A stretch of 64,000 nt of DNA. Origin: Fimbriiglobus ruber (GTDB lineage Bacteria > Planctomycetota > Planctomycetia > Gemmatales > Gemmataceae). The notes under the pieces were generated by a model. It searched no databases and was not told where the DNA came from. It saw only the letters and a list, made by a program, of their open reading frames with translations. Where the stretch lies: positions 124,001-188,000 of the forward strand of contig NZ_NIDE01000014.1 of the NCBI RefSeq assembly GCF_002197845.1, written 5' to 3'. Shown here piece after piece: positions 1 to 29,255 of this stretch (the first letter of the stretch is position 1; every line of letters begins with the position of its first letter). A program made the position numbers and the translations under genes.

Positions 1-606
1 GGGGTCGAGAAGGTGACCACCCTCATTAACATCTTCGACAAGGACGCCTTCCTCAAGGAGATCGAGAAGCTGGAGGGCACGGCGTCCAAGGCGGACACCA
101 TCGCCCACCGGACGAAGAAGACGATCATCGAGCGGATGGAGGAGGACCCGGCGTTCTACCGCAAGTTCTCCGAGATGCTGGAAGACGCGATCCGGGCGTT
201 CCGCGAGAAGCGGCTGGCCGATCGGGACTACTTGAGCAAGGTCATGGAGATCGCCGACTCGGTGCGGAACCGTACCGGCGACTCGCTGCCAGATAAGCTC
301 CGCAACCAGGATGTGGCGAAGGCCTTTTACGGGGTCGTCCTGGAGCCGCTGGGGCGGCACGTCGCCGAGCCGGGGGAATGTCGGGAACTCTCGGCGGACG
401 CGGCATTGCGGATCGACGAGATTGTGCGGGCCGAGCGGATTGTCAGCTGGACGACGAACACCGATGTGCAGAACCGCATGAAGAACCTGATCGAAGACTA
501 TCTGCACGAGCTTAAGGATGAGACCGGGCTGCTGCTGACCTTCGAGGACATCGACGAGATCCTCGAGAAGTGCCTCGACGTCGCCAAGCGGAGGTACGCG
601 GCGTGA
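1..606 (+). CDS. hsdR: Type I restriction enzyme R subunit, C-terminal part
   Basis: The frame is open to the left edge, so this is only the last ~200 residues of HsdR, the ATP-dependent translocase and nuclease subunit of a type I restriction-modification complex. What is seen is the helical C-terminal region that contacts the methyltransferase: GVEKVTTLINIFDKDAF, then ADTIAHRTKKTI, EDPAFYRKFSEML and SVRNRTGD, a pattern typical of the EcoR124-like HsdR C-terminus. The motor and nuclease domains would lie left of the window. An internal GTG at 13 is not taken as the start because the homologous sequence begins upstream of it. The stop codon overlaps the start of the next gene, so the two are translationally coupled. 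Confidence 0.88.
   Translation, partial: GVEKVTTLINIFDKDAFLKEIEKLEGTASKADTIAHRTKKTIIERMEEDPAFYRKFSEMLEDAIRAFREKRLADRDYLSKVMEIADSVRNRTGDSLPDKLRNQDVAKAFYGVVLEPLGRHVAEPGECRELSADAALRIDEIVRAERIVSWTTNTDVQNRMKNLIEDYLHELKDETGLLLTFEDIDEILEKCLDVAKRRYAA
590..594 (+). promoter_or_regulatory. Ribosome binding site deciding the YgjP start
   Basis: GGAGG sits 8 bases before the GTG at 603, inside the last codons of hsdR. It selects GTG 603 over the in-frame GTG at 570, which has no comparable site, and creates a GTGA stop-start overlap. Confidence 0.7.
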
Positions 607-1334
607 TCGAGAACGGCCAACCCGGGGGCGGTTACCTCCTGCGGTACGGCGGACTGGCGATCCCGTTCCGGGTCGAGTACCGCGATCGAAAGGATCTGGC
701 CATCAGCGTCTACCCGGAGCTGCGGCTGGAGGTGTTGGCCCCCCGGCGTGTGAGCGTCGAGCAGGTCCTCACCCGGGTGCAGAAGCGGGCCGGGTGGATC
801 GTGCGTCAGTGGCGGAAGTTCGAGCGGTACCGCCCGCCCCAGCCGGAGCGGCGGTACGTGAGCGGGGAGACGCACCGCTACCTCGGCCGCCAGTACCGGC
901 TGAAGGTCCAGGGAGGGACGCCGTCCGGGGTGAAGCTGATCGGCCGGTTCCTGCAAGTCCGGACCACGGGCGAGGCGGACGGCGACGAAGTGCGGAACCT
1001 GCTCGAAGCCTGGTATCGGCAGCACTCCGAGCGGGTGTTCGCCCAGCGGCTCCTGCACTGCCTCGAAGCGGTGCGGTCGCTCCGCCTGGCCCAGAGTCCG
1101 ACCCTGACCGTCCGCAAGATGGCGAAGCGGTGGGGGAGTTGCACCAAGGCCGGGGCGATCCGGCTGAACGTGGAGCTGGTGAAGGCCCCGGTCCCCTGCA
1201 TCGACTACGTGATCGTTCACGAGCTGTGCCACCTCAAGGCCCACAACCACGGCCCGGAGTTCTACCGTCTCCTTGGTCGCTGCATGCCCGACTGGGAGGC
1301 CAGGAAAGAACGTTTGGAAGCCGTTACCGTTTAG
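603..1334 (+). CDS. YgjP/WLM-type zinc metallopeptidase (M48-like)
   Basis: A 243-residue protein of the YgjP (DUF45) family. The catalytic zinc site is seen as HELCH at residues 206-210, followed by the family hallmark HNHGPEFYRLL with a further His ligand. Upstream, KMAKRWGSCTKAG is the conserved strand before the zinc helix. Such peptidases are often encoded directly beside type I hsdR genes, and here the GTG start overlaps the hsdR stop, so it is made together with HsdR. The substrate is unknown; control or turnover of the restriction complex is inference. A start at 570 is possible but lacks a ribosome site. Confidence 0.87.
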   Translation: MIENGQPGGGYLLRYGGLAIPFRVEYRDRKDLAISVYPELRLEVLAPRRVSVEQVLTRVQKRAGWIVRQWRKFERYRPPQPERRYVSGETHRYLGRQYRLKVQGGTPSGVKLIGRFLQVRTTGEADGDEVRNLLEAWYRQHSERVFAQRLLHCLEAVRSLRLAQSPTLTVRKMAKRWGSCTKAGAIRLNVELVKAPVPCIDYVIVHELCHLKAHNHGPEFYRLLGRCMPDWEARKERLEAVTV

Positions 1335-1407
1335 GCTGCTGAGCGGCGATCCAGCGACTGCCGCAGGGGACTTACACGGCCGGCGTGGGGCGGCCCGAGG
1401 AGTACAC

Positions 1408-3324
1408 ATGAAGAACGACTACCGGGTGCAGATCAACTTCTTGCCTGTAGACGGGCCGCTCCCGCCGTTTCGCGTGTACCGCAAGCCGTGCACCGGTAGC
1501 GAAGCCCGCCCCTCGACCGACGTGGCAGCCTACTCCCTCCCCGTCAGCAGCGAAATGGAGGAGCGTCAGTTTTATTGGGTCCGGTTCACCCCCGCTGAGG
1601 GCTACCACGAACACCATATCCACGCGTCGGACAACAACAACCTCACCAAGTGGGCGATTCTGCACGCAATCCAGACTGCTGTTCATGCGAAGTTGAAACC
1701 TTCGGAGTACCACATCCCTGCCAAGGGTTTTGTCGATTCAATTCGGCTGCTCATGGTGGAGCACCCTGAGGGATTCGAGCAACTGGAGGTTCAGCCCTAC
1801 TTCCTGCGTGAAACCCAGCAGTTCGGGTGTCTGGCAGACTTCCACTTCAAGGTGAAGGGGGGCGTCGCCTTCTCCCGACGGATCCAGCAACTGAGCTTGA
1901 GCTTGAACCGGGCAGGGAAGCGGAACGTCGACTACTACCTCGACCGCGACGGGAAGATTCGGACGTTCACGACCGCGAGGCGGGATGTGCTGTCTGGGCT
2001 GTTGCTGCCAGGAAGCACGACACCCATCAGTCTCGGCAGAGAGTTCGTTTCGTTGCCTGCCCGGACCCTCGGGGCGAAGACGTACGTTTTCGCGGGTGGG
2101 AAAACGTCCCGAAGTCAGTTCTCAGGTCTGCGAGACCACGGGCCGCTGGAACCCCTGTCGGCTGCCCCACATCTTCTCTTCCTGTTCCGCGAGCAGGATC
2201 GCCAAGCGGCCCGAATACTGGCGGCAGCTCTCAAAGGGACGAAGGGAAAGGAGCGGTTCAACTTCCCGGGTTTCCAAGCCCTCTTCAAGTCCGATCTGAG
2301 TTACGACGCGAAGCCGATCATCCTGTCCGATCTGAACAAGCCGTCGATGGAACTTGCCGTGCAAGAGGTCCAGCGACGGCGGCTCACGACCCCGAACGCC
2401 CTTCCGGTCCTCGTGCTCCCGCAGGGCGATGATAACGGCTACCTGGCTCACAAGGCGGGGTTCGCGAACGTCGGGATCGCAACCCAGGTGTGCACCCTGC
2501 CGGTCATTCAAGACGAGGCCGCGTTGAAGTGGGCGATCGGGAACATCGCTTTGCAGATCTTTTGCAAGGCGGGCGGGCAGCCGTGGAAGGTGCGGCCGAC
2601 CACGGAGCCGACCCTCATCGTCGGGATCAGCCAATCGCACCGGCTGAAAGCAGTCGGCGATGACCGGGTGGTGGAGAAGTACTTCGCTTTCACGGTGATG
2701 ACGGACAACAGCGGGCTGTTCCAGAAAATCCAGGTCTTGGGTGACGCCACGCAGCACGAGGACTATCGACGCCAGCTGACGACCAACCTCGAGGCCCTGC
2801 TCGGTGAGGCTTCGTCGCAGTTCAAGAGAGTGGTAGTCCACACCTCGTTCAAGCTCAAGAGGAAAGAAATCGACGCCATCGAGCAGTCGGTCCGTCGTGC
2901 GGCGGGAGCCAACAAGGCGTGTCGGTTCGCGGTGGTGAAGGTGAACCAGCACTCGCGGTTTTTCGGGGTGAACCGCGGCGTGAACAGTCTGGTGCCCAAC
3001 GAGGCGACGTGCGTCCGCCTCGGCCAAGGCGAGTACCTCGTGTGGTTCGAGGGCATCAACCCGGACAAGCCGACCGTGGGTAAGCTGTTCCCTGGGCCGA
3101 CACACTTGGACTTCTTACGGGTGCCCGATGGTCAGGGCATACGCGACGACGAGTTGCTCCAGGACATCATCAATCTTTCGGGGGCCAACTGGCGGGGGCT
3201 GAACGCCAAGAACTCTCCGGTCTCGGTGTTCTACTGCCACCTCGTTGCCGACATGGTTCACGACTTCCACGCCGAGAACCTGCCGCTGCCGCAGGTCGAG
3301 GTCATCCGGCCTTGGTTTCTGTGA
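1408..3324 (+). CDS. Long prokaryotic Argonaute, catalytically inactive (long-B type)
   Basis: A 638-residue protein with the length of a long pAgo, not of a ~450-500 residue short one. The MID domain shows the 5'-phosphate guide pocket Y345, K349 and Q360 in YLAHKAGFANVGIATQ. The PIWI domain begins near residue 402 (LIVGISQSHR) and closes with LLQDIINLSGANWRG (about 583-597) and HLVADMVHDF. The first catalytic Asp of the DEDX tetrad is Ser408, and the second is replaced in VVVHTSF (Thr479/Ser480), so target cleavage should be lost. Inactive long-B Argonautes use a guide to sense invader nucleic acid and pass the signal to a partner effector; the partner here is the next gene. Start: ATG 1408 with GAGGAGT six bases upstream. 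An in-frame extension to 1273 overlaps the YgjP gene and is rejected. Confidence 0.88.
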   Translation: MKNDYRVQINFLPVDGPLPPFRVYRKPCTGSEARPSTDVAAYSLPVSSEMEERQFYWVRFTPAEGYHEHHIHASDNNNLTKWAILHAIQTAVHAKLKPSEYHIPAKGFVDSIRLLMVEHPEGFEQLEVQPYFLRETQQFGCLADFHFKVKGGVAFSRRIQQLSLSLNRAGKRNVDYYLDRDGKIRTFTTARRDVLSGLLLPGSTTPISLGREFVSLPARTLGAKTYVFAGGKTSRSQFSGLRDHGPLEPLSAAPHLLFLFREQDRQAARILAAALKGTKGKERFNFPGFQALFKSDLSYDAKPIILSDLNKPSMELAVQEVQRRRLTTPNALPVLVLPQGDDNGYLAHKAGFANVGIATQVCTLPVIQDEAALKWAIGNIALQIFCKAGGQPWKVRPTTEPTLIVGISQSHRLKAVGDDRVVEKYFAFTVMTDNSGLFQKIQVLGDATQHEDYRRQLTTNLEALLGEASSQFKRVVVHTSFKLKRKEIDAIEQSVRRAAGANKACRFAVVKVNQHSRFFGVNRGVNSLVPNEATCVRLGQGEYLVWFEGINPDKPTVGKLFPGPTHLDFLRVPDGQGIRDDELLQDIINLSGANWRGLNAKNSPVSVFYCHLVADMVHDFHAENLPLPQVEVIRPWFL

Positions 3325-3332
3325 GGTCATCA

Positions 3333-4421
3333 ATGAGTGCACGTTCGACGGATGTCATGCTCCTGCTCGGAGCCGGGGCCAGCGTGGACGCGGGCATACC
3401 CGCGTCCGCGACGATGATCAAGGACCTCGAAAGCCTGCTGCATAACGGTGGCGAGTGGGGGGAGCATCTGCAGCTGTACCGGCACGTGAAGAGTGCGATC
3501 CACTACGCCGCCGGGCTCAAGGGAGTCTATGGCTGGGACGTGCCGTTCAACATCGAGACCCTCGTCAACACCCTGTACGAGTTGGAGCGGAACGAAGAGC
3601 ATCCGCTGTACCCGTTCATCGGCTCGTGGAACTCTCGCTTTGTCGCCCTCGCCGGCTCGAAATTCGAGCACATTCGCAGGTTCCGGTCCCTCATCTTGAA
3701 GCAGCTCAAGCGGTGGATGTGCCCCGACAGTCCTTCGCGGGGCGACTATTACAAGGGGCTGGTCAACCTGCAGCGTGAGTTGAACTACCCGCTCCGCATC
3801 TTCACTCTGAACTACGACCGCTGTGTCGAGCGGATCGAGCGTGACGGGTTCCGGGTGGAAGCGGGCTTCGGCGGGAACGGGGCGGATCATTTCTGGGACT
3901 GGGAGCGGTTCGAGCAGCACGACGCGGATTCGAGCACCCCTCCACAGGCCTACCTCTACAAGATTCACGGTTCGATGGACTGGAAGCGGGACCAGGACAA
4001 CAACCTGTTCCGCGTCGAGCAGACGGAATCCGTCGAGCACGAGCGGATGGAGATCATTTTCGGCCGGGATTTTAAGCTGGAGGCAGCCGACCCCTACCTC
4101 TTCTACGCGTACGAGTTTCGTCGCTACTGCTTGCTCGCCAAGCTGATCGTGGTGATTGGCTACAGCTTCAGCGATGGGCACATCAACAAGATGCTCGTCC
4201 AAGCTCTACGCAACGATAAGGACTGCCAGTTGTTCGTGGTCATTCGTTGCGAATTCAAGAAAGAGATCGACTCGAAGCGTGAAGAAATCGCCGAGAAACT
4301 GGACGTGTCTGTCGATCGCATCGGTGCGTACCACGGTTCGGCGAGAGATTTTCTCAGCTCGAGTGAGCTTGGAAATTGCGTTCGCTCCCGCGTCCCCGAA
4401 CCCAGCGATGGGCCTTTCTGA
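3333..4421 (+). CDS. SIR2-domain effector paired with the Argonaute
   Basis: A 362-residue SIR2-like protein. NAD-binding and catalytic signatures are seen in order: LLLGAGASVDAGIP (residues 11-23), TLNYD (158-162), KIHGSMDW with His212, and VIGYSFSDGHIN (274-285). Proteins of this class in defence systems usually hydrolyse NAD+ and cause abortive infection. It starts 8 bases after the Argonaute stop, with GAGG just upstream, so the pair forms an operon: the inactive Argonaute as guide-loaded sensor, SIR2 as toxic effector. No APAZ domain is recognised, in line with a long Argonaute partner. The activity is inferred from family, not shown. Confidence 0.88.
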   Translation: MSARSTDVMLLLGAGASVDAGIPASATMIKDLESLLHNGGEWGEHLQLYRHVKSAIHYAAGLKGVYGWDVPFNIETLVNTLYELERNEEHPLYPFIGSWNSRFVALAGSKFEHIRRFRSLILKQLKRWMCPDSPSRGDYYKGLVNLQRELNYPLRIFTLNYDRCVERIERDGFRVEAGFGGNGADHFWDWERFEQHDADSSTPPQAYLYKIHGSMDWKRDQDNNLFRVEQTESVEHERMEIIFGRDFKLEAADPYLFYAYEFRRYCLLAKLIVVIGYSFSDGHINKMLVQALRNDKDCQLFVVIRCEFKKEIDSKREEIAEKLDVSVDRIGAYHGSARDFLSSSELGNCVRSRVPEPSDGPF

Positions 4422-6823: not shown

Positions 6824-7127
6824 CAGTGTCTCCTGATTGATTCGGTGATCCGGTGAGGGTATCCACCAGGATCGGTACTCCAGGGCGAGGTCAAGAACCC
6901 GCCGGGCCGAAGGCCGTGGCAGGTCGGGTTCGGGATCACGTCGGCCACTCACCCATGCAACCTCCATCGGAGTTAGCCAGGGCGGGTGTCACGGTCGGGG
7001 TGGGACAAGACCTGTCGAGGGCCGCCGGTTGCACCGACGGGCCTGAACGGGTCTAGTCCTCCTGACATGGTGAGTCAGTTCCCGTCATGGTCGTGTCCGT
7101 CGGACCGGACTGGTCGAGTCTTCTGTG

Positions 7128-7175
7128 TAGTCATGTGATTAGTCATGTGGTTAGTCATGTGATTAGTTATGTGCG
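7128..7175. repeat. Four tandem 12-bp repeats (iteron-like)
   Basis: Units start at 7128, 7140, 7152 and 7164 with consensus TAGTCATGTGAT; the third equals the first and the others differ at one to three positions. They directly border the AT-rich stretch 7176-7330. This layout is that of an iteron origin or a multi-site operator. Confidence 0.6.
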
Positions 7176-7330
7176 TGGCTAGTTTTCCAGTTCTCGTTTC
7201 TCTTAAATTGTTTTAGATTAGTTGTCACTATCTCGTTTCACTTGTCACATATCTGGTTTAGAAAAAGGAAGAAGTAGATGGTCTGCTGATAAAAAATCTT
7301 CTGCTACTAGTGTTAGAATGGACACCGGAA
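7176..7330. other. AT-rich stretch beside the iterons, candidate unwinding region
   Basis: Marked fall in GC relative to the ~60-65% surroundings, with runs such as TCTTAAATTGTTTTAGATTAG and GATAAAAAATC. It holds no open frame. Together with the tandem repeats it would suit a DNA-unwinding element. The gap 6824-7127 left of the repeats shows nothing else. Confidence 0.4.
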
Positions 7331-9890: not shown

Positions 9891-10178
9891 TTACAGCCCG
9901 AGTGCGGCCAGTTCCCGCTCGACCTGGTTGCGGTCCGCAGGCATCGGTTTGGGAACAGGTCGCGGGTTATCGGTGCGGGTCTGGCGGTCGAAGAACCGCT
10001 GTAGGGCTTCGACCGAGGTGCAGAGTTGTCCACCCACACGGATGGTTTCGAGCCCCCTTGCCGCCCAGCGGTAGAAGGTGCTCACGTGGGGCTTTCGGCC
10101 GTGGCGTCGACGGGGGCACAGGTCTCTGGCCGCCTCCCGGAAGCTCACGACCCGTTCTTTCGCGATGTCGATCGGCAT
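9891..10178 (-). CDS. DUF1580 helix-turn-helix protein
   Basis: 95 residues. The N-terminal 60 residues (FREAARDLCPRRRHGRKPHVS, then FYRWAARGLETIRVGGQLCT) match DUF1580, a family I know mainly from planctomycetes that resembles excisionase/MerR-type DNA-binding domains. Such proteins are common on planctomycete mobile elements, where excision or copy control is plausible. Start ATG 10178 has AGGGGTG upstream; the longer frame runs through a short tandem repeat and is rejected. Confidence 0.75.
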   Translation of the reverse strand: MPIDIAKERVVSFREAARDLCPRRRHGRKPHVSTFYRWAARGLETIRVGGQLCTSVEALQRFFDRQTRTDNPRPVPKPMPADRNQVERELAALGL

Positions 10179-10250
10179 TGGGTCACCCCTTGGCGTGGCC
10201 CGGGAATCGGGTCCACGCCCATAAGGGGCATTTTTTCGGGTGTCACATGG

Positions 10251-10275
10251 GACACTTAGAGACACTTAGAGACAC
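10251..10275. repeat. Short tandem repeat
   Basis: Two and a half copies of the 10-bp unit GACACTTAGA in the leader of the DUF1580 gene; a binding site for that protein is possible. Confidence 0.45.
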
Positions 10276-10331: not shown

Positions 10332-11021
10332 CTACTGGGGTTTGAGACAGAGCCGCCGACCGCAGCCCTTCTGGCCCATGATGATCTGCCGGAGGTCGGC
10401 CGGGAGGTACTTGATCGCCCGCGAGATGCGTTTCAGCCCGGCCGCCCCCTCGGGGAAGTCCTGGAACCCGGCGAACGCCTTGCCGCCCTTTGTCGCCTCG
10501 TCGCGGAGGGTGAGAACCATGACTTCGGAAGTGCAGTACGGGGTCTGGTGGGCGTGGAGCACCCTGAGAATCGCGTACCCGTCGGGCCGCAGCCGGGAAT
10601 ACAACTCGCCGTCAAGCAGGACCGAGTGCGTCGAGTCGTCGAACTGCAGGCGTTCCCTCTTATGATACTCCTCGTCCAGCCAGTCCGCGAACGCCGATGC
10701 CATCTCGCGGGCCTTGCCGAACTTCCGACCTTCGTAGGCGGTCACAAGGTCGATCCAGTACGACCGCCCCTCCTCGTCGAGCGGGTTCAGGTTTACGAAC
10801 GTGTCCGGTGAGACAAACACCTCGCGGAAGACGAGATCGAGTTCGGGCACGTCCGCGATCGATGTCGGTGTTCCGGCGGTCTCCTCGTTCGCACCGACGA
10901 TCTTCCCGACCGCGAAGGCCCGCAGCGTGTCGGCGAGAACGCGGATGCGGAACCGGCCGTAGAATATGGCACTCGGTTTTGCTTTCCGCGACTTCACCTT
11001 CGGTTTCTCGTTCCGTGGCAT
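10332..11021 (-). CDS. Hypothetical protein with winged-helix-like C-terminus
   Basis: 229 residues, very basic start (MPRNEKPKVKSRKAKP). From about residue 145 the layout LRPDGYAILRVLHAHQTPY, then ISRAIKYLPADLRQI and GCGRRLCLKP resembles a response-regulator-type winged helix (helix, recognition helix, glycine hairpin). The N-terminal part is not recognised. It is the last gene of the phosphatase/nucleotidyltransferase/2H operon, 23 bases after the 2H gene, and could be its regulator. A similar winged-helix layout occurs in the gene at 15777-16244. Confidence 0.55.
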   Translation of the reverse strand: MPRNEKPKVKSRKAKPSAIFYGRFRIRVLADTLRAFAVGKIVGANEETAGTPTSIADVPELDLVFREVFVSPDTFVNLNPLDEEGRSYWIDLVTAYEGRKFGKAREMASAFADWLDEEYHKRERLQFDDSTHSVLLDGELYSRLRPDGYAILRVLHAHQTPYCTSEVMVLTLRDEATKGGKAFAGFQDFPEGAAGLKRISRAIKYLPADLRQIIMGQKGCGRRLCLKPQ

Positions 11022-11044
11022 CAGTTGGCCTCCCCATCACCTGG

Positions 11045-11632
11045 CTAATGCGACGCCCGGACGCTCTTCAGGCGGTGTCTGAGTTCCGCGACCGCTGTGA
11101 CGGATCCAGACGCGGGCCAAGTGTCCGGGTACTCGGCGAGGACGACCTTCTCCAGTGTCGCCGTCACCGCGATCCCGCGGTCGTCCCGGCCCAGTCCTAT
11201 CAAGGTACCCTCAGTGGCACCCCACGCGAGAGTCACATGCGGCCGGTAACCGCTCCCGGCGTGAGCGGCGGACGTCTCGTCCCGTATCACCACCGTGCCA
11301 AATGCGTTCATCAATAACCCATGCAGTCGCTGCATCACGGCGGTACCGGGACCGTCGGGTTCGACCGATAGCCAGAGCAGGTCCGGCTCGCGGAAGGCAG
11401 GGCCGCAAAGCAAAAACTCGCCTGTATGTTCGCCATCGAGGTCAAGCTCATTCAAGACATCCCCGACGGGCTCCGGTTCAGCCCAGAACCGACCGCGTAG
11501 TGTGACGTGGACTGGGAAACGGAGAGCGAGATCGTTCCCGGTGAGAGCGGCCAGCTGTTGCTGGAGTGGTCGCACGACCCGAGCGGTCGATGCGTCGAGG
11601 AGCCCGAAAACAGCGTAGCGGCGGGGTGGCAT
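11045..11632 (-). CDS. 2H phosphoesterase (LigT/2'-5' RNA ligase-like)
   Basis: 195 residues with the two HxT signatures of the 2H superfamily: FPVHVTLRG (H42, T44) and GYRPHVTLAWG (H132, T134), each ending a strand. Family members open 2',3'-cyclic phosphates or cleave 2'-5' bonds, including cyclic oligonucleotide signals. ATG 11632 follows the nucleotidyltransferase stop after only 2 bases, so expression is tightly coupled. A 112-codon upstream extension of the frame runs through the neighbouring gene and is not used. The substrate is unknown; RNA-end repair and nucleotide-signal turnover are both possible. Confidence 0.85.
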   Translation of the reverse strand: MPPRRYAVFGLLDASTARVVRPLQQQLAALTGNDLALRFPVHVTLRGRFWAEPEPVGDVLNELDLDGEHTGEFLLCGPAFREPDLLWLSVEPDGPGTAVMQRLHGLLMNAFGTVVIRDETSAAHAGSGYRPHVTLAWGATEGTLIGLGRDDRGIAVTATLEKVVLAEYPDTWPASGSVTAVAELRHRLKSVRASH

Positions 11633-11634
11633 GG

Positions 11635-12687
11635 TCAGTAGATGAGGTACTCGAAGAAGCGGCTGGACCACGTTCCGCCCCGGGCCAGTGTAAACCGGAG
11701 TAGCTCGGCGACAAACCCGTCGGAGTTGTCTTTCAACGCCTTGTAGGACGGGATCTCGTACCGCTTCTCGTAAGAGTTGGGTTCCGCCTTGTTGAGGGCA
11801 GTTCGCACCTCGGACTTGCTGATCTCGGACAGAAAGGTTTCGTAAAATCCGAGCAGTTTCGCCACATCCTCGCCGTTGGATGTATATGTCCAGGCGATCC
11901 GTTCGAGCGGCGTCATTCTCAACCGCCGTCGGAGCCATGCCACCTTGTCGGTTGTTTCCAGGCTGCACTGCCCGAGCAGGAGCAGGAGGCCGCCGTACAT
12001 CGCCAGTCGGCTATGCCGCAACTTCGTGTTCCGCAGTGGCCACTTCATGTGCTCGGTGCGGAAGTCCCACTGATAGTTCACGCACAGCGACCGGAAGTAC
12101 CGGATCAGGTCGTTGAGCAGGAACACCCACTCCTTGGTGGGTTTCCTGTCTACGTAACCTTCGGCATAACTGTTGACGACTCCCGTGATGAGTTTCTCGT
12201 ACTCATCGTCGTTGTACACTGGCTGGGTTTCCAGCAGCAGGAGCAGACGCTTCGCCAGCACCCGCAGGTCTTCGTCCGGAGCCCCAACGTTCCGCTTGTC
12301 GCAGAGGTGCTGCTCGGACGTCGGAGACGAGAACGTCCCGGTTGCCTTGGGCAGTTCCAGGTCCAGCGGCTCGAGTGCGGCCCATACTCGTGCGTATGCG
12401 TCGTTGGCAATGGCCGGGTTCTGTCTGGCCGCGTCAGTAAGAACGACCAGCAGGTCGCAGTCAGAGGCATCCCCGTATTCCATCCGACCCAGTGATCCTG
12501 CAACGGCCAGCGTGCGAACCGCACGAGGGAGCCCCGCCTTGCCGAGTTGTTCGCGAATTTGCCCAATGCGGACGCGGGACTTGGTCCAGTTCCCGACGAG
12601 TGTGGGGCAGGCCGGGAGGTTAATTCCCGGTACACCCCAGTCACGGTCGGCGGCAAATTGTTCCGGGAAAGGGATGGGCACCGACAT
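11635..12687 (-). CDS. Nucleotidyltransferase (Pol-beta superfamily)
   Basis: 350 residues. The nucleotidyltransferase signature is seen as G64-S65 followed by D76-x-D78 in AGSLGRMEYGDASDCDLL, the GS...DxD metal-binding site of the Pol-beta superfamily. The remaining 270 residues are helical and could form the substrate domain, in a layout close to DUF294-type putative nucleotidyltransferases. Coupled by 2 bases to the 2H gene and 50 bases after the histidine phosphatase gene. It could add nucleotides to RNA, to a protein, or make a nucleotide messenger; the sequence does not decide this. No signal peptide or membrane segment. Confidence 0.8.
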   Translation of the reverse strand: MSVPIPFPEQFAADRDWGVPGINLPACPTLVGNWTKSRVRIGQIREQLGKAGLPRAVRTLAVAGSLGRMEYGDASDCDLLVVLTDAARQNPAIANDAYARVWAALEPLDLELPKATGTFSSPTSEQHLCDKRNVGAPDEDLRVLAKRLLLLLETQPVYNDDEYEKLITGVVNSYAEGYVDRKPTKEWVFLLNDLIRYFRSLCVNYQWDFRTEHMKWPLRNTKLRHSRLAMYGGLLLLLGQCSLETTDKVAWLRRRLRMTPLERIAWTYTSNGEDVAKLLGFYETFLSEISKSEVRTALNKAEPNSYEKRYEIPSYKALKDNSDGFVAELLRFTLARGGTWSSRFFEYLIY

Positions 12688-12737
12688 GAACGGGCCTCTG
12701 GGGCAGCACGGGAGGTCTGCCTTTCACTTTACGGTCA

Positions 12738-13451
12738 CTACGCTGACTTGGCTGCGATGCTTGCGAGAAAGGCCGGGAACGCGAGACGGTGCCAGCGTAC
12801 CCGGAACACTTCCGTGTTCTTGAAGCTGCGGGCGAGAACCTGGGAAGGATCGCGGAGCTCCTCGAAGATCCCCGCCATGATTCGCATGGGGCCCATGTGT
12901 CCGCAAATCAAGACCGCGGTGGCGTCGGTCCGCCGGATGAACCGGATGAGGTCAATGAGGAAGCTGAGCAACCGCCGCGACACTTCGGCATAGCTATCGC
13001 CTCCGGCCGGGGCGTAGTCGAAGTCACCGCGGGCGAACTCCTCAATTGGACGAACGGGCGTCATCTCCAATTCGCCTAGCGAACGCTCGTTAATCCTGGC
13101 ATCCGGGTACACGGCACCGACCCCGACTTGTCCGGCTTCCATCGCGAGCTGGAGGGTTTCGGCGGAACGGCTGAGCCGGGAATGGATGGCCAGATCGTAC
13201 CGCGGATCGAGACGGCGACCGACTGCTCGGGCTTGCTCACGTCCGAGAGCAGTCAACGGGCTGTCCTGGACACCGGTCACCAGTGAGCGTGCGTTCGCCT
13301 CGGTCTCACCGTGCCGGACCATGTGCAGTTCGACCGGGAAGGGGAGTTCGATCGGCCGGTTCAGCAGGTTGCCGATCTCCTCCCACGAGTACACCACTCC
13401 GGAGAACTCGGGGGCGGATCGGACAGTTCGTTCCGCGAATAAGCCCGGCAT
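12738..13451 (-). CDS. Histidine phosphatase (phosphoglycerate mutase-like)
   Basis: 237 residues. The branch-1 histidine phosphatase signature ELHMVRHGETEAN carries the phospho-accepting H47 after R46; a second Arg is in SRLSRSAETL (92-95), the acid residue near E122 and the second His at H185 in LICGHMGPMR. About 40 extra residues precede the domain. Start ATG 13451 is chosen because GGAGAGG is just upstream. First gene of a four-gene minus-strand operon, so it probably acts on the product or substrate of the nucleotidyltransferase and 2H enzymes, for example removing a terminal phosphate. Confidence 0.85.
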   Translation of the reverse strand: MPGLFAERTVRSAPEFSGVVYSWEEIGNLLNRPIELPFPVELHMVRHGETEANARSLVTGVQDSPLTALGREQARAVGRRLDPRYDLAIHSRLSRSAETLQLAMEAGQVGVGAVYPDARINERSLGELEMTPVRPIEEFARGDFDYAPAGGDSYAEVSRRLLSFLIDLIRFIRRTDATAVLICGHMGPMRIMAGIFEELRDPSQVLARSFKNTEVFRVRWHRLAFPAFLASIAAKSA

Positions 13452-13671
13452 GCCTCTCCTCGATTGCGGCTGGTTCGTCCATCGTTCCGGATAAGATCGG
13501 CAGTTCCTGATCGTCAGCGTTGCCTCCAACTCGTCATTCACGAGAGGGGAACTGACAGTTGCGACGGCCATGCCGATCATGCGGCCTCAAAAGTGGACGG
13601 GGCCTCTCCTCGCCCACAAGCCAGTTCAAGACTCGGACCAGGTCAGGGGCCCTGTGTCGCCTGCTTGCATC

Positions 13672-13688
13672 AGTATACGCAAGTATAC
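13672..13688 (-). promoter_or_regulatory. Doubled TATACT boxes upstream of the phosphatase operon
   Basis: On the minus strand GTATACT occurs twice, 10 bases apart, about 220 bases before the phosphatase start. Either copy could be a -10 box, or the pair a small operator. No clear -35 box is seen. The rest of the 13452-13755 gap is empty. Confidence 0.3.
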
Positions 13689-13755
13689 ATGACCCCTGGA
13701 CGGAGGCAACGAGTTCCCTCGCTCTCCCCTCCACTTCGATCTCCTGGAGGAACAG

Positions 13756-14034
13756 TCACCCGAACGAAGTCAACAGGGTGCTCGCCCTCTTCCACCCGAT
13801 CCAAGCATACACCGAACACTGATCCGGAACGAGGCCCTTTCCCTGCCAGGCAGGTTTGCCAGGTAGATACTCGAACCCAGGCAGTTCACCGGAATCCATC
13901 GTCTTACCAAAGACATGCATGACATCGACCAAAGTAAAATAGCAATTTGACCCTTCCAGGTGGGCCTTCAAGTTGTACCGTCGTGTACCGTCTGCGTACC
14001 GTTTTTCGCCCATCCGTACCGCGTCACGCCGCAT
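13756..14034 (-). CDS. Small hypothetical protein next to the att site
   Basis: 92 residues (or 85 from the Met at 14013). The middle reads like real protein: YNLKAHLEGSNCYFTLVDVMH, then ELPGFEYLPGKPAWQGKG. No family recognised. GGAG lies about 10 bases before ATG 14034. It is the last minus-strand frame before the tRNA fragment. Confidence 0.4.
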   Translation of the reverse strand: MRRDAVRMGEKRYADGTRRYNLKAHLEGSNCYFTLVDVMHVFGKTMDSGELPGFEYLPGKPAWQGKGLVPDQCSVYAWIGWKRASTLLTSFG

Positions 14035-14138: not shown

Positions 14139-14182
14139 CTTCGGGACCAAGAGGTCGCAGGTTCAAATCCTGTCAGCCCGAC
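14139..14182 (+). other. 3' fragment of tRNA-Pro(CGG), candidate att site
   Basis: From the anticodon loop TTCGGGA onward the sequence follows tRNA-Pro: CCAAG of the stem, variable loop, T-arm GCAGG-TTCAAAT-CCTGT that pairs (one G-U), and acceptor 3' strand ending AGCCCGA. The 5' half is absent: upstream DNA does not pair with the anticodon stem or the acceptor. A break inside the anticodon loop beside a tyrosine integrase is the usual mark of tRNA-site integration. No intact tRNA-Pro is seen in the window. Confidence 0.72.
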
Positions 14183-14245
14183 TTGAAGTAGAATGCCTTA
14201 AACTCCGTTGCCGAAGCAGTTTCTGCTTACCCCGGCCTGGGATCG

Positions 14246-14308: not shown

Positions 14309-15613
14309 GTGCCTCCTTTTCGTAAACCAACTCCGTCTTATCTCCTTCACAAGCAGTCCGGGCGTGGTCGTGCCGTTTGGTACGATGTCGCAGGAATTCG
14401 CCAACAGAAACTTCTTCCCGGCCCCTACAACTCGCCCGAGTCGCGCACCGCATTCGCTCGGTTGCAACTGGAGCTGGAGTCCTCCTCCGCCCCAGCCTTG
14501 CCCGATCGCGACGGTGTCACGATTGCGGAACTCCTTTGTGCCTATCTCGACCACGCTGAGCGGCATTATCGGGGTCCCGACGGCGTCCCGACGAGTGAGA
14601 TCTACGAGGTGCGTGTCGTAATTCGGGCGTTACGAGAGTTGTACGCCGACACACCTGCAGCCGAGTTCGGCCCCTTGGCGCTAAAAGCCGCACGTCAGAA
14701 GTGGGTCAAGGACGGGCGGAGTCGGACGGAGTGCAACCGTCGCGCGGGCCTGATCAAGCGTATTTTCAAATGGGCGGCTTCGGAGGAACTGGTTTCCTCA
14801 ACCGTTTACCATTCCCTCGTCACGATTACGGGTCTACAGAAGGGGCGGACGCTGGCCCCAGAGACGAATCCTGTCTGCCCGGTCGATGACGCCGTGGTCG
14901 ACGCGACACTACCTTTTCTAAACCGCTACGTCCGCGGCTTGGTCGAATTCCAACGATTGACTGGCTGCCGGCCGGGAGAGGCCTGTGCCGTCCGCCGCTG
15001 CGACATCGATATGAGTGGCTCAGTCTGGCTGTACCGGCCAACTCGACACAAGAACGCGTGGCGCGGAAAGCCCCGCACCATTGCGATCGGGCCGCGGGCG
15101 CAAGAAGTACTGAAGCCGTTCTTCACCCCGAATCCCGACGATTACTTGTTCAGTCCTCGGCGGGCGGTTGAGGAGCAACTCGCGGATCGGACAGCCCAGC
15201 GGAAAACCCCTCGTTACCCGTCCCACATGAGGCGGAACGCGGAGAAGCGGGCGGCAAAACCGAAACGCTTACTCGCCGAGACGTACGACCGGGGGAGCTA
15301 CGGACTGGCCATCGATCGCGCGAGCGAGCGGGCCTTCCCACCCCCAGCCCCCCTGTCACAATGCGATGGGGAAACGCGGGCGGCGTGGTGGAATCGGTTG
15401 TCGTCACAGCAACGCGACGAGGTAAAATCTTGGTGGAAAGAGCACCGCTGGCATCCCAATCAACTCCGACACGCGTTTGCCACGATTGTCCGCAAGCAGC
15501 ACGGTTTGGAGGCCGCACAAGTGCTTCTCGGACACACTCGGGCGGACGTAACGCAGGTGTACGCCGAGCGAAATGAACAACTGGCCGCAACGGTCGCGGC
15601 AATGATAGGATAG
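14309..15613 (+). CDS. Tyrosine recombinase / integrase
   Basis: 434 residues. Catalytic residues: R221 in LTGCRPGEACA, R387 in HPNQLRHAFAT, H409 in VLLGHTRAD and the nucleophile Y418 in TQVYAERN. The first His of the HxxR box is Asn, a variant I associate with planctomycete integrases. The N-terminus (KPTPSYLLHKQSGRG..YDVAGIRQQKLL) is the short beta arm-binding domain of this group. GTG 14309 directly follows the 30-bp palindrome, with no recognisable ribosome site, suggesting tight control. It lies 126 bases from the tRNA-Pro fragment and is transcribed away from it; it presumably inserted an island at that tRNA. Confidence 0.93.
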   Translation: MPPFRKPTPSYLLHKQSGRGRAVWYDVAGIRQQKLLPGPYNSPESRTAFARLQLELESSSAPALPDRDGVTIAELLCAYLDHAERHYRGPDGVPTSEIYEVRVVIRALRELYADTPAAEFGPLALKAARQKWVKDGRSRTECNRRAGLIKRIFKWAASEELVSSTVYHSLVTITGLQKGRTLAPETNPVCPVDDAVVDATLPFLNRYVRGLVEFQRLTGCRPGEACAVRRCDIDMSGSVWLYRPTRHKNAWRGKPRTIAIGPRAQEVLKPFFTPNPDDYLFSPRRAVEEQLADRTAQRKTPRYPSHMRRNAEKRAAKPKRLLAETYDRGSYGLAIDRASERAFPPPAPLSQCDGETRAAWWNRLSSQQRDEVKSWWKEHRWHPNQLRHAFATIVRKQHGLEAAQVLLGHTRADVTQVYAERNEQLAATVAAMIG

Positions 15614-17792: not shown

Positions 17793-19161
17793 CAGTACAG
17801 CGCAGTAATTTAATAGGATGGGAGGTAAGGATTTAGGAGGAATCACATGACCGAGCGGGAAATCGTGGGCGTCGGCCCGGCGTTCGCCCGGTATCTGGGC
17901 CGGTATCGGGACGTGTTCCGGCAGGACCGCACGGCCGCCCACTTCGACACGTATTGTCGGGGCCTGTTATCCGACCTGCCGCGGAAATCGATCGAACCGA
18001 TCGCGTTGGCGAGCGGGACGACGGTCCGTACCCTCCAGTTGTTCGTGACGACCTCGGTGTGGTCGTACGACGAGGCCCGGACGCGGTTGCACCGATTCGT
18101 GGCCGATACGCTGGCCGATCTCCCGACCGATCCCGTCGGAACGGTCGGGGTGATCGACGAGACGAGCAACCGGAAGTGGGGGATCACACTCCGGGCGTCC
18201 AACGGCAGTACCTGGGGTGTGTGGGCAAGGTCGACAATGGGATCGTGACCGTCCACGTGGGGGTCACCCACGGCACCTTTCGCACCCTGTTGGACGCCGA
18301 CCTGTTCCTACCCGAGTCGTGGGACGTGGACCGCGCGCGGTGTCAGGCGGCCGGCATCCCGGACACCGTCCGGCACCACCCGAAGTGGCGGCTGGCCCTC
18401 GACCAACTCCTCCGGGCGAACACGAACGGGATCACGTTCGACGGGCTGACGTTCGACGAAGGGTACGGGGCAGCCGTCCCGCTCCTGACCGTGTTGGGCG
18501 TGATGGGACAGCGGTTCGTGGGTGAAATCCCGACGAATTTCGCCGTCCGGGACGCGGCCGGGGGCCCCTCCCGGCGGGCCGACGAGCGGTTGACCGGGGG
18601 TCACGCCGAGCGGGGGCGAGTGTACCGGTTGACCCGCCAGACGACCCGCCCGTCGGTCTGGCGGGTGGCCACCGCCATCGTCTGGGTGGCCGACCGCAAG
18701 CACACCCTGATGGTCGCCCGCAACGACGCGACCGGGGAGATCAAGTACTTCCTGACGAACGCCACGGCCGAGCCGGTGGCTCGGATTCTCGCCGTCGCCT
18801 TCCGCCGGTGGACGGTCGAGCATCTATTCCGGGTCGCCAAACAGGAAGTCGGACTGATGCACTACGAGGGGCGGGATTACACGGGGCTGATGCGGCACCG
18901 GACCCTGGCCGTGGTCGTCCTCGGATTCGTCGCCGCCCACACGGAGCGACTCCGGGGGGAAAAACCCAGACGTGACGATGGAGCAGGTGTGCCGGGCGCT
19001 CAACGTCCGGTGCGCGATCCTGTTCCGGCGGCGACGGGGAACCGGGGCCACCCAACATACCAGCGACGTAATTCAATACCACCAGCGGCGAAACAAGCAA
19101 GCCACCCGATCTCATAAGAAGCAGCGGCACAAACGTGTTACGTAAAATACGCGCTGTACTG
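17793..19161 (+). mobile_element. IS701-family element, copy A
   Basis: 1369 bp, bounded by CAGTACAGCGC inverted ends and the target duplication CTAA at 17789-17792 and 19162-19165, which fits the YTNA-type 4-bp target of IS701. One base shorter than copy B (a missing G near 18180). Confidence 0.9.
17847..19117 (+). pseudogene. IS701 transposase copy A, frameshifted
   Basis: The first 111 codons match copy B, then one G is missing in the run at about 18178-18183 and the frame is lost (ETSNRKWGITL instead of ETSSRKWGDHT). The rest continues in the next frame. AGGAGG lies 7-8 bases before the ATG. As in the other copies, the last ~55 codons look genuine only in a further frame (see the shared shift at 18954-18964). 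Confidence 0.88.
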
Positions 19162-25614: not shown

Positions 25615-26983
25615 CAGTACAGCGCGTATTTTACGTAACACGTTTGTGCCGCTGCTTCTTATGAGATCGGGTGGCTTGCTTGTTTCGCCGCTGGTGGTAT
25701 TGAATTACGTCGCTGGTATGTTGGGTGGCCCCGGTTCCCCGTCGCCGCCGGAACAGGATCGCGCACCGGACGTTGAGCGCCCGGCACACCTGCTCCATCG
25801 TCACGTCTGGGTTTTTCCCCCCGGAGCCGCTCCGTGTGGGCGGCGACGAATCCGAGGACGACCACGGCCAGGGTCCGGTGCCGCATCAGCCCCGTGTAAT
25901 CCCGCCCCTCGTCGTGCATCAGTCCGACTTCCTGTTTGGCGACCCGGAATAGATGCTCGACCGTCCACCGGCGGAAGGCGACGGCGAGAATCCGAGCCAC
26001 CGGCTCGGCCGTGGCGTTCGTCAGGAAGTACTTGATCTCCCCGGTCGCGTCGTTGCGGGCGACCATCAGGGTGTGCTTGCGGTCGGCCACCCAGACGATG
26101 GCGGTGGCCACCCGCCAGACCGACGGGCGGGTCGTCTGGCGGGTCAACCGGTACACTCGCCCCCGCTCGGCGTGACCCCCGGTCAACCGCTCGTCGGCCC
26201 GCCGGGAGGGGCCCCCGGCCGCGTCCCGGACGGCGAAATTCGTCGGGATTTCACCCACGAACCGCTGTCCCATCACGCCCAACACGGTCAGGAGCGGGAC
26301 GGCTGCCCCGTACCCTTCGTCGAACGTCAGCCCGTCGAACGTGATCCCGTTCGTGTTCGCCCGGAGGAGTTGGTCGAGGGCCAGCCGCCACTTCGGGTGG
26401 TGCCGGACGGTGTCCGGGATGCCGGCCGCCTGACACCGCGCGCGGTCCACGTCCCACGACTCGGGTAGGAACAGGTCGGCGTCCAACAGGGTGCGAAAGG
26501 TGCCCTTGGTGACCCCCACGTGGACGGTCACGATCCCATTGTCGACCTTGCCCACACACCCCAGGTACTGCCGTTGGACGCCCGGAGTGTGATCCCCCCA
26601 CTTCCGGCTGCTCGTCTCGTCGATCACCCGACCGTTCCGACGGGATCGGTCGGGAGATCGGCCAGCGTATCGGCCACGAATCGGTGCAACCGCGTCCGGG
26701 CCTCGTCGTACGACCACACCGAGGTCGTCACGAACAACTGGAGGGTACGGACCGTCGTCCCGCTCGCCAACGCGATCGGTTCGATCGATTTCCGCGGCAG
26801 GTCGGATAACAGGCCCCGACAATACGTGTCGAAGTGGGCGGCCGTGCGGTCCTGCCGGAACACGTCCCGATACCGGCCCAGATACCGGGCGAACGCCGGG
26901 CCGACGCCCACGATTTCCTGCTCGGTCATGTGATTCCTCCTAAATCCTTCCCTCCCATCCTATTAAATTACTGCGCTGTACTG
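25615..26983 (-). mobile_element. IS701-family element, copy C
   Basis: 1369 bp with the same CAGTACAGCGC ends. Flanks are TTAA on the left (25611-25614) and TTAG on the right (26984-26987), so the target duplication is not exact, unlike copies A and B. Confidence 0.9.
25659..26929 (-). pseudogene. IS701 transposase copy C, frameshifted
   Basis: Nearly identical to copy B, but one C is missing at about 26629-26630 (GATCACCCGACC instead of GATCACCCCGACC), which shifts the frame after codon 101 (PVGTVG). This lesion is different from the one in copy A, so the two copies decayed independently. Confidence 0.88.
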
Positions 26984-27017: not shown

Positions 27018-29255
27018 ATGGAGCTAACGGTGGGGAACGAACGAGTGGCGTTCCGCCCCTGGCAGCCGACCGACGGGCAGGTCTTCCGCACTCCGTTCGC
27101 GTTCCACGCCGAAACAACCACGATTGACACGATGCGCCCGTGGGCAACCCCGGCCTACGTTCTCGGGGCCGGTTTCGACGGGAAGACAGGCCTCTTCGTC
27201 CCCCGGGACCGGCTACCGGCCTTCTGGGCCACCCATGCCGACGTGCCGATCGCTTGCCACGAAGCTCGGTTCCACCTGGCCGTGGTGGCCGCCGCCGTCC
27301 CATCTGTCGACGTATACGACCGGGTGGACCGGAACGCGGTGTACGACACGTGGCTGATGCACCGACTACTCGCCCTCGGGGCCAACGGCCACACGGCGGC
27401 CGGAGTGGGCGAGTCGACTTTGGATCGGTGTGTGGCAGAACACCTCGGGGAGACCCTCCCGAAGTCTCAGACGGACTCACAGGGTCGGGTGGTCCGCCTT
27501 TCGTTCGGCCGCTGGCTCCGCCGGCCGTCAGCCGATATCGAGCCGGTCTACCTCGATTGCCTGGCCCGGGTCACCGCCGCCACGTTTCTCCTCTTCGGCC
27601 GGCTGCGCGCCGGTCTCGAACGGCTCTTGGCCGAGTCCGGTGGGTCGTGGGGGTACGTGTCTCCCGACTGGCTCGCCGCGCAGGTCCAGCGGTGGGGGTG
27701 GCAAACCCACCACATCCAGGTCCGGGCCAGCATCGTGCTGCGCGCCGTCACGGCAAACGGACTGACGCTTGACCTGGACCGCCGTGACGAACTGACCGCC
27801 CGACTCCAGGCCGAGGCGACCCGCCTCCGCGAGGAACTCCGGCTCCACGGCTACCTGGCCGGGCAACCGGGGGCGGAAGCCGCACTCCAGTCGATTCTCC
27901 GCCGCCTCGAGCGGACGCTCCCGGGCGTCACGTTTCCGCGGACCGCGGGGGGCAAGTACGCCACCTCCCGGGAGGCCCTCGGGGAACAGGCCGCGCGGGT
28001 CCCGTTCCTGGTTACCCTGGCGTCGTATCAGGCGATCGAGAGTCTACTGGGTGGGTTCGTTAGCAGGGTGCGAAAGCGGGTCGTGCATCCGTCCTTCGAC
28101 CCGCTCGTGAGGTCCGGCCGGACCTCGTCGTTCGGCGAATTAAACGCCCAGAACCTGCCCCGGGAGCACGGCGTCCGAGCGTGCATTGTGCCAAGCCCGG
28201 GTCATGTCTTCATTTCCGCCGACTATGCGACGATCGAGATGGCCACCCTGGCCCAGGCTCTCAAAAGCCAGTTCGGTCTCGACTCCGGACTAGCCCGGGC
28301 GCTGAACACGGGGCGGGATCCGCACCGCATGGTCGCCGCCCGAATGACGGGGAAGCCGGAGAGCGAGGTGACGAACGACGAGCGGCAGCGGGCCAAGCCG
28401 ATCAACTTTGGCAAGCCGGGCGGGATGGGACTGGCCGCCGTCCGGCAGTGCGCGAAGGCGAGTTACGGCGTCGACCTGGACGACGGGGAGGCGCAGAAGC
28501 TGTCGGACGCCTGCGAGGACGAATTCCCCGAGCTGGGCGATTTTCTACGCCCCGAATCGGACGAAGGGGAGGCGGTTGCCCAGCTGTTCGGGCTGACCCC
28601 GGCGAGTCACCACGCCCACACGCGCTGTCGCCGGTTCCTCGATCACCCGGAGAACGCGAGTCGGGCCGACGACCCGCACTCTATCCTCGGGCGAATGTGC
28701 CTGAAGGTATTGAAGTCGGACTTACCCACGACCCGGGCGGGCGTCCCCTACCAGTCGACGGACGTCGACTACTTCTGGTCCCGGGTCAAAGGGGGTCTCG
28801 ACCACTTACCGGACCAGGTCCGCCAAGCCGTCCGCGACCGGCGACCGTCGCCCGCCCTCCTCCGGGCGGTGCGGGAGGCGGCGGACCGAGCCCCGGTGTT
28901 TACCGTCACCGGGCGACTGCGGGCGGGAGCCTCGTTCCCGGCCCGCAGGAATACGGTTTTCCAGGGGTTGGCCGCCGACGGGGCGAAACTCGCCCTGTGG
29001 CTCCTGTGGCGGGCCGGCTTCCGGGTGGTCAACTTCGTCCACGACGAGGTCCTGATCGAGGTCCCCGCGAGCGAAGATTTGCTGGCGAAAGCCGAGCAGA
29101 TCCGGGGGCTCATGATCGACGGCATGAGGCAGGTCGTGCCGGACATCCGGATCGCGGTCGAGTACGCGGCCTGTGACCGATGGTACAAGGGGGCCAAGGC
29201 CGTCCGGAGCCCCGACGAAAAGCGGCTCGAGTTGTGGACCCCGCCCGGGGCTTAA
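27018..29255 (+). CDS. Family A DNA polymerase with a degenerate exonuclease domain
   Basis: 745 residues, Pol I-like but not the housekeeping enzyme. Polymerase motifs: A in FISADYATIEMATL (about residue 400), B in RQRAKPINFGKPGGMG (about 460; the usual Tyr of the O-helix is Gly), C in VNFVHDEVLIEVP (about 675). In the N-terminal 3'-5' exonuclease-like part, motif I is FAFHAETTTID and motif II HEARFHLAVV: both catalytic Asp are His; motif III YDTWLMHRLL is kept. Proofreading is therefore probably lost. GGGAG six bases before ATG 27018. Such polymerases are typical of plasmids, phages and islands; one likely use is replication or repair of a mobile element. Confidence 0.88.
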   Translation: MELTVGNERVAFRPWQPTDGQVFRTPFAFHAETTTIDTMRPWATPAYVLGAGFDGKTGLFVPRDRLPAFWATHADVPIACHEARFHLAVVAAAVPSVDVYDRVDRNAVYDTWLMHRLLALGANGHTAAGVGESTLDRCVAEHLGETLPKSQTDSQGRVVRLSFGRWLRRPSADIEPVYLDCLARVTAATFLLFGRLRAGLERLLAESGGSWGYVSPDWLAAQVQRWGWQTHHIQVRASIVLRAVTANGLTLDLDRRDELTARLQAEATRLREELRLHGYLAGQPGAEAALQSILRRLERTLPGVTFPRTAGGKYATSREALGEQAARVPFLVTLASYQAIESLLGGFVSRVRKRVVHPSFDPLVRSGRTSSFGELNAQNLPREHGVRACIVPSPGHVFISADYATIEMATLAQALKSQFGLDSGLARALNTGRDPHRMVAARMTGKPESEVTNDERQRAKPINFGKPGGMGLAAVRQCAKASYGVDLDDGEAQKLSDACEDEFPELGDFLRPESDEGEAVAQLFGLTPASHHAHTRCRRFLDHPENASRADDPHSILGRMCLKVLKSDLPTTRAGVPYQSTDVDYFWSRVKGGLDHLPDQVRQAVRDRRPSPALLRAVREAADRAPVFTVTGRLRAGASFPARRNTVFQGLAADGAKLALWLLWRAGFRVVNFVHDEVLIEVPASEDLLAKAEQIRGLMIDGMRQVVPDIRIAVEYAACDRWYKGAKAVRSPDEKRLELWTPPGA

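Follow-up and report, generated by a model that had tools for sequence, protein, structure and literature searches.

A mobile histidine phosphatase, nucleotidyltransferase and 2H phosphoesterase module from Fimbriiglobus ruber that may heal RNA 3′ ends

What could a histidine phosphatase (HP), a nucleotidyltransferase (NT) and a 2H phosphoesterase (2H) be doing together in a mobile genomic island? The question is raised by a locus in a 64,000-nucleotide stretch of the 12.4-Mb assembly of the planctomycete Fimbriiglobus ruber (G000:C14:124001-188000; this whole stretch is the window), in which four open reading frames (ORFs) lie co-directionally on the minus strand where the original prediction, made from the DNA letters, had placed them. 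That prediction took the four as one operon for RNA-end repair or nucleotide signaling. The ORFs are present and the order HP-NT-2H is kept in another bacterium, but the fourth gene is one of the element's backbone genes. The answer favored here, tentatively and as the leading candidate among several, is that HP-NT-2H most likely heals RNA 3′ ends as a horizontally moving conflict module, probably anti-phage, carried as exchangeable cargo of a tRNA-Pro(CGG) element.

When some 85,000 species genomes were scanned with the NT, a single relative was confirmed: Desulfoferrobacter suflitae, from another phylum, whose HP, NT and 2H genes follow one another as in the window, the products being 52, 52 and 38% identical. 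Because the order recurs at this distance the grouping is not a matter of chance, and the gene order on which the original prediction had staked itself is thus conserved elsewhere. Such a single-protein scan reaches close relatives only, and therefore the module may be commoner. Partial arrangements are also found: on a 4.5-kb contig from another planctomycete family (G390) HP is followed directly by NT with no 2H, and a plasmid of Rhizobium sp. BT04 has NT and then HP, again with no 2H, at 31-36% identity. In the window's own family one genome (G073) has an HP at 60% identity with in-frame stops, an IS630-like gene and NT fragments on two contigs; judged from their sequence, the HP and NT remains are a decayed copy of the module. 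As 2H was found in the window and Desulfoferrobacter only, the core is HP-NT and 2H is accessory; among 392 planctomycete genomes a 2H profile matched one, the window's own. Scans of IMG/VR with the NT, 2H and related NT queries gave no relatives, and HP matches there were without NT or 2H neighbors; phage records held no match to NT or 2H, and plasmids none to 2H or the fourth gene.

The fourth gene was considered as an operon member and rejected. Its product is 77% identical to a protein of G083, a genome of the same family in which a survey of 149 relatives reported no NT. The DNA of the window and G083 aligns at 80% over 11024-9892, comprising the fourth gene and a DUF1580 gene. A second stretch, 14183-13974, aligns at 76%, and protein comparison shows the integrase to be syntenic as well. 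Where the window has HP-NT-2H between these flanks, about 1.2 kb of G083 is occupied by another gene pair. Since the flanks align and the cargo differs, the intervening stretch is a slot for cargo, and the fourth gene, kept in G083 beside unrelated cargo, is part of the backbone. Its product, for which a winged-helix-like nature had been suggested, matches no family. In G083 the slot holds genes for 128- and 282-aa proteins that overlap by 4 bases (L071 8011-9242, G083:C195); the larger product has an NTase-like GG...DFDLHL stretch, neither matches Pfam or PADLOC, and the two look like a toxin-antitoxin-type pair. Other conflict systems might be sought in this slot.

The three module genes are closely spaced, with 50 bases between HP and NT and, as originally stated, 2 bases between the NT stop and the 2H start, while 23 bases separate 2H from the fourth ORF. 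Purine-rich stretches resembling ribosome-binding sites precede HP, NT and the fourth ORF, and the HP start, an ATG at 13451, is backed both by GAGGAGAGG upstream and by the decayed G073 homolog, which aligns from residue 1. HP has the RHG motif (R46-H47), second arginine (R95), acid (E122) and second histidine (H185) of branch 1 histidine phosphatases, all invariant in three homologs. Assignment to housekeeping CobC, Gpm or SixA was rejected with scores far under the NCBIfam cut-offs, and no housekeeping equivalog in NCBIfam was matched above cut-off. The two Hh[ST]h motifs expected of 2H enzymes are HVTL at 42-45 and 132-135, invariant in both homologs, although the match to PF13563 (1.4e-5) falls slightly below its curated cut-off. 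In the NT, G64-S65, D76 and D78 are invariant in nine homologs, giving the GS and DxD of the pol-beta-type fold, and D193 and R196 of its helical part are conserved, with glutamate at 193 in one solo NT.

PADLOC assigns the NT to its family PDC-M70A, at 3e-33 over residues 42-333 (2.1e-34 for the Desulfoferrobacter NT); the matches to Pfam NT families are weak (DUF294 0.004, NTP_transf_2 0.043). The PDC models come from a guilt-by-embedding survey in which some Hma-embedded candidates were antiviral and most PDCs are not validated (PMC12988326). A literature search found no characterization of PDC-M70, no paper naming it and none on an HP-NT-2H operon, in keeping with the original view that this is not a described system; HP-NT-2H is apparently a rare and undocumented variant around a known but uncharacterized candidate family. 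PDC-M70 itself pairs the M70A NT with a TIM barrel, M70B. It resembles the module in its two-gene logic, an NT joined by a partner that probably acts on phosphoesters, and in its association with defence islands. The module differs in that its partner is HP, with or without 2H, instead of the TIM barrel, and no PDC-M70B was found beside the NT of the window or of Desulfoferrobacter.

Partners follow the NT clade. In a tree of 17 NT rows, the four HP-linked NTs require a single label change, unlabelled rows not being counted (support 100/99), with those of the window, Desulfoferrobacter and G390 together and that of Rhizobium across the midpoint, and the TIM-linked NTs form a separate group. 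HP accompanies all four of the former and PDC-M70B adjoins all six TIM-group NTs; when the phylum of Desulfoferrobacter was surveyed with the NT, one extra, partial NT was found, followed by PDC-M70B at the contig end. PDC-M70B is a PF01261 protein with invariant H65, H93, E113, D143, H146, H172, H182 and E208, residues of metal-ligand type. Since a PDB search with it gave no relative, its likeness to endonuclease IV is drawn from PF01261 and this residue pattern, and it is probably an endonuclease-IV-like (AP-endonuclease-like) barrel. One distant NT is overlapped by 4 bases by the gene of an HD-domain protein, and one NT follows a possible helix-turn-helix (HTH) ORF; G253 (L062 5690-8326) shows another partner combination, an HTH-like ORF followed by genes for an HD-domain protein and a PDC-M70A-like NT that share 4 bases. 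Those NT partners that have a recognized enzyme fold (HP, 2H, HD and TIM) look like phosphoester hydrolases suited to 3′-end cleaning.

These partners suggest what the module might do. A metal-independent RNase, either a host toxin or one provoked by phage, would leave a 2′,3′-cyclic phosphate, which 2H would open; HP would take off the remaining phosphate, and the NT, if catalytic, would extend the cleaned end by at least one nucleotide, for instance so as to restore the 3′ end of a tRNA. Healing of 3′ ends is favored because HP and 2H represent the two activities that turn a 2′,3′-cyclic phosphate into a 3′-OH that an NT can then extend, because the alternative NT partners (endonuclease-IV-like TIM, HD) are suited to that role too, and because in a CCA-adding enzyme a single polypeptide has all of these activities. 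2H enzymes are the usual means of opening the 2′,3′-cyclic phosphates left by conflict RNases (PMC9503650). On this reading the substrate would be RNA, all three enzymes would act on it, and the benefit would be phage defence or resistance to a toxin, the defence role being one that the module may have by association with its island neighbors. In the CCA-adding enzyme with an HD domain from E. coli or Mycobacterium, a pol-beta-type NT is accompanied by two activities for cleaning tRNA 3′ ends, a 2′,3′-cyclic phosphodiesterase and a phosphatase. The module has separate genes, HP and 2H folds in place of HD and an NT that lacks a CCA/PAP match, and so the resemblance is one of working, not of membership. 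Similarly, animal Sts-1/UBASH3 carries a 2H phosphodiesterase (HITL and HVTL motifs) and a histidine phosphatase in one polypeptide, and its 2H domain opens 2′,3′-cyclic nucleotides to the 3′-nucleotide (PMC10218301). The animal proteins are without an NT, the target of their HP domain is phosphotyrosine in proteins, and no claim of orthology is made.

A wider idea, decidedly more doubtful than the healing role itself, is that of a family of mobile immune modules in which one NT swaps its 3′-end-cleaning partners (endonuclease-IV-like TIM, HP with or without 2H, HD) and rebuilds RNA ends after attack by conflict RNases, as a dispersed and defence-specialized counterpart of the CCA-adding enzyme with HD. 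In any case the uncharacterized defence-candidate family PDC-M70A gains a second gene context with interpretable chemistry, and from the pattern of one NT whose phosphoester-hydrolase-like partners differ by clade a testable substrate can be predicted. If that substrate is RNA 3′ ends, the module would add to bacterial immunity a mobile branch for RNA repair that operates without a ligase.

Several observations weigh against RNA 3′-end healing. The third acidic residue of the NT fold is normally on strand 5 (PMC11646218). The corresponding column has H127 in the window, Q in Desulfoferrobacter, H in G390 and D in Rhizobium and most TIM-linked NTs, so that by alignment the usual third catalytic acid is not conserved in the HP-linked group; D193 of the helical part could stand in for it. 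The original statement that all key residues are present accordingly stands for the motifs of HP and 2H and for GS-D76xD78, and is not confirmed at this position. The NT gave no match at E<=1 to Pfam PolyA_pol or the NCBIfam CCA/PAP models, and a profile search found no such enzyme among PDB chains; the best PDB matches were small minimal nucleotidyltransferases (MNT) and kanamycin NTs, with the GS-DxD core alone covered. AlphaFold models with two sequences each (pLDDT 42 for 2H and 38 for NT) were too poor for fold searches. The module is without a ligase or kinase and 2H is absent from two of the four intact HP-NT loci. A sugar isomerase is an equally plausible identity for a PF01261-type TIM barrel. 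Planctomycete chromosomes have several NTs that stand alone, beside housekeeping-type genes such as a gyrA-like one, and a solo PDC-M70A NT is the main cargo of the 4.5-kb E. coli plasmid pISHS7_5 (L020), found in 1 of 5426 E. coli genomes. On the Rhizobium plasmid (L069 15709-30699) NT-HP lies among genes for glycosyltransferases and major facilitator superfamily (MFS) transporters. This cluster also has small P-loop kinase, HAD, NUDIX and aminotransferase genes, and about 9 kb from NT-HP are rtcR, an RNA-binding protein gene and rtcB, a proximity counted as weak support for RNA repair.

Much of this can be read in favor of a close rival, not probable in itself and nearly as likely as 3′-end healing, in which the NT would put a nucleoside monophosphate on a protein or small molecule and HP and 2H would remove or process it, in a toxin-antitoxin-like or detoxification module. 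There is precedent in MntA, which modifies a HEPN toxin, in GlnE and GlnD, which modify their proteins, and in kanamycin NT, which modifies the antibiotic. The nearest solved structures just mentioned are of this kind, DUF294 and GlnD are matched weakly in Pfam and NCBIfam, there are solo NT genes including that of the 4.5-kb plasmid, the Rhizobium pair is within its glycosyltransferase/MFS cluster, and the slot pair of G083, which has an NTase-like motif, looks toxin-antitoxin-like. However, no HEPN or other target gene is adjacent, three separate genes kept across phyla would be unusual for a resistance enzyme, and 2H enzymes are not known to be deAMPylases. HEPN-MNT toxin-antitoxin systems (PDC-M05 type) do share the GS-DxD minimal-NT core and the conflict setting, but the module has no HEPN gene and its 350-aa NT has a helical C-terminal part of its own. 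The Rhizobium context, which looks biosynthetic, and the solo NTs beside housekeeping-type genes are also what would be expected of a hitch-hiker, a metabolic or regulatory set concerned with small-molecule nucleotides that is in islands by chance and has no defence role. This is improbable: both three-gene loci are in dense defence islands, the G083 slot carries different conflict-type cargo, and the NT family had already been flagged as a defence candidate.

Nucleotide signaling, the other half of the original prediction, would have the NT make a (cyclic) oligonucleotide that 2H and HP degrade, and 2H enzymes can indeed degrade cyclic oligonucleotides, as does Acb1 of phage. Among PDB chains the NT profile weakly matched HalB (E 0.09) and CdnD (E 2.3), the latter being the best CD-NTase. 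The NT has no match to the PADLOC CBASS models, nothing at the level of a CD-NTase was found, and the conserved module has two hydrolases, no receptor and no Cap or other effector gene. Because of the missing effector, signaling with its own hydrolase is the less likely course, and we regard it as improbable. RNA-end repair, the remaining half, stays the best single guess at mechanism, at the same tentative level as above and without the operon of four genes in which it was first framed.

The original description of the setting as a defence-rich mobile island is borne out. Exact 45-bp direct repeats bound a 41.4-kb island with an intact tRNA-Pro(CGG) at its left end (C14:96738-96812) and HP-NT-2H at its right end, and an integrase-like ORF (C14:97379-98068, PF00589 6.4e-13) is just inside the tRNA end. 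Because the integrase gene of the window is outside the right repeat and another integrase-like ORF adjoins the intact tRNA, the former is probably part of an adjoining, older element in tandem. The island also carries HsdM/HsdS/HsdR of a type I restriction-modification system, just upstream of the window, and a short-Argonaute system at 1273-4421 on the plus strand, with a class II prokaryotic Argonaute (pAgo; PADLOC 2.4e-217) and then the SIR2 of the Aga_SIR2 model (1.1e-131); YgjP and the type I operon are its neighbors. Both intact three-gene loci are in dense defence islands, that of Desulfoferrobacter being directly behind YgjP and an Hma system (HmaA 3.8e-172, HmaB 2.4e-100, HmaC 3e-94), with a 1561-aa protein that lacks a family match also around it. 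In that locus (L050 5286-8996) the HmaB methylase is fused to an N-terminal NADAR domain and adjoins a PRTase-CE protein and a Gabija-like pair.

Table 1. Features of the window around the HP-NT-2H module
Feature	Position	Strand	Remarks
HP, histidine phosphatase branch 1, 237 aa, first module gene	12738..13451	-	PF00300 4.5e-28; R46-H47, H185
NT, pol-beta-type nucleotidyltransferase, PDC-M70A family (PADLOC), 350 aa, conserved helical C-terminal part	11635..12687	-	PDC-M70A 3e-33; GS-D76xD78; D193/R196
2H phosphoesterase, 195 aa, HVTL twice	11045..11632	-	PF13563 1.4e-5; motifs kept in Desulfoferrobacter
Fourth ORF, 229 aa, without family, element-backbone gene, outside module	10332..11021	-	77% identical protein in G083 beside other cargo
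DUF1580 protein, element backbone	9891..10265	-	PF07618 2.8e-10; inside 80% identical stretch common to G083
Cargo slot, differs between the window and G083 elements	11025..13973		DNA homology stops at 11024 and 13974
45-bp att-like core, exact copy of tRNA-Pro(CGG) 3′ half, right island end	14140..14184	+	left copy G000:C14:96770-96814
Tyrosine integrase, just outside right repeat	14309..15613	+	PF00589 1.1e-13
HsdR C-terminus, YgjP peptidase, class II pAgo, SIR2 (Aga_SIR2)	13..4421	+	other defence cargo of the island

Near-copies of the 45-bp repeat are present on C17 (371437) and C1 (1315447), where no tRNA gene is called. Within the island, a AGTCATGTGATT-like unit with a 12-bp period is repeated in tandem over the short stretch 7117-7176 of the window. 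Further along the window, what is apparently the same DDE_5 transposase occurs in two inverted copies, 17954-19117 (+) and 25659-26822 (-), that flank a transposon-rich stretch adjoining a DNA polymerase A gene (27018-29255).

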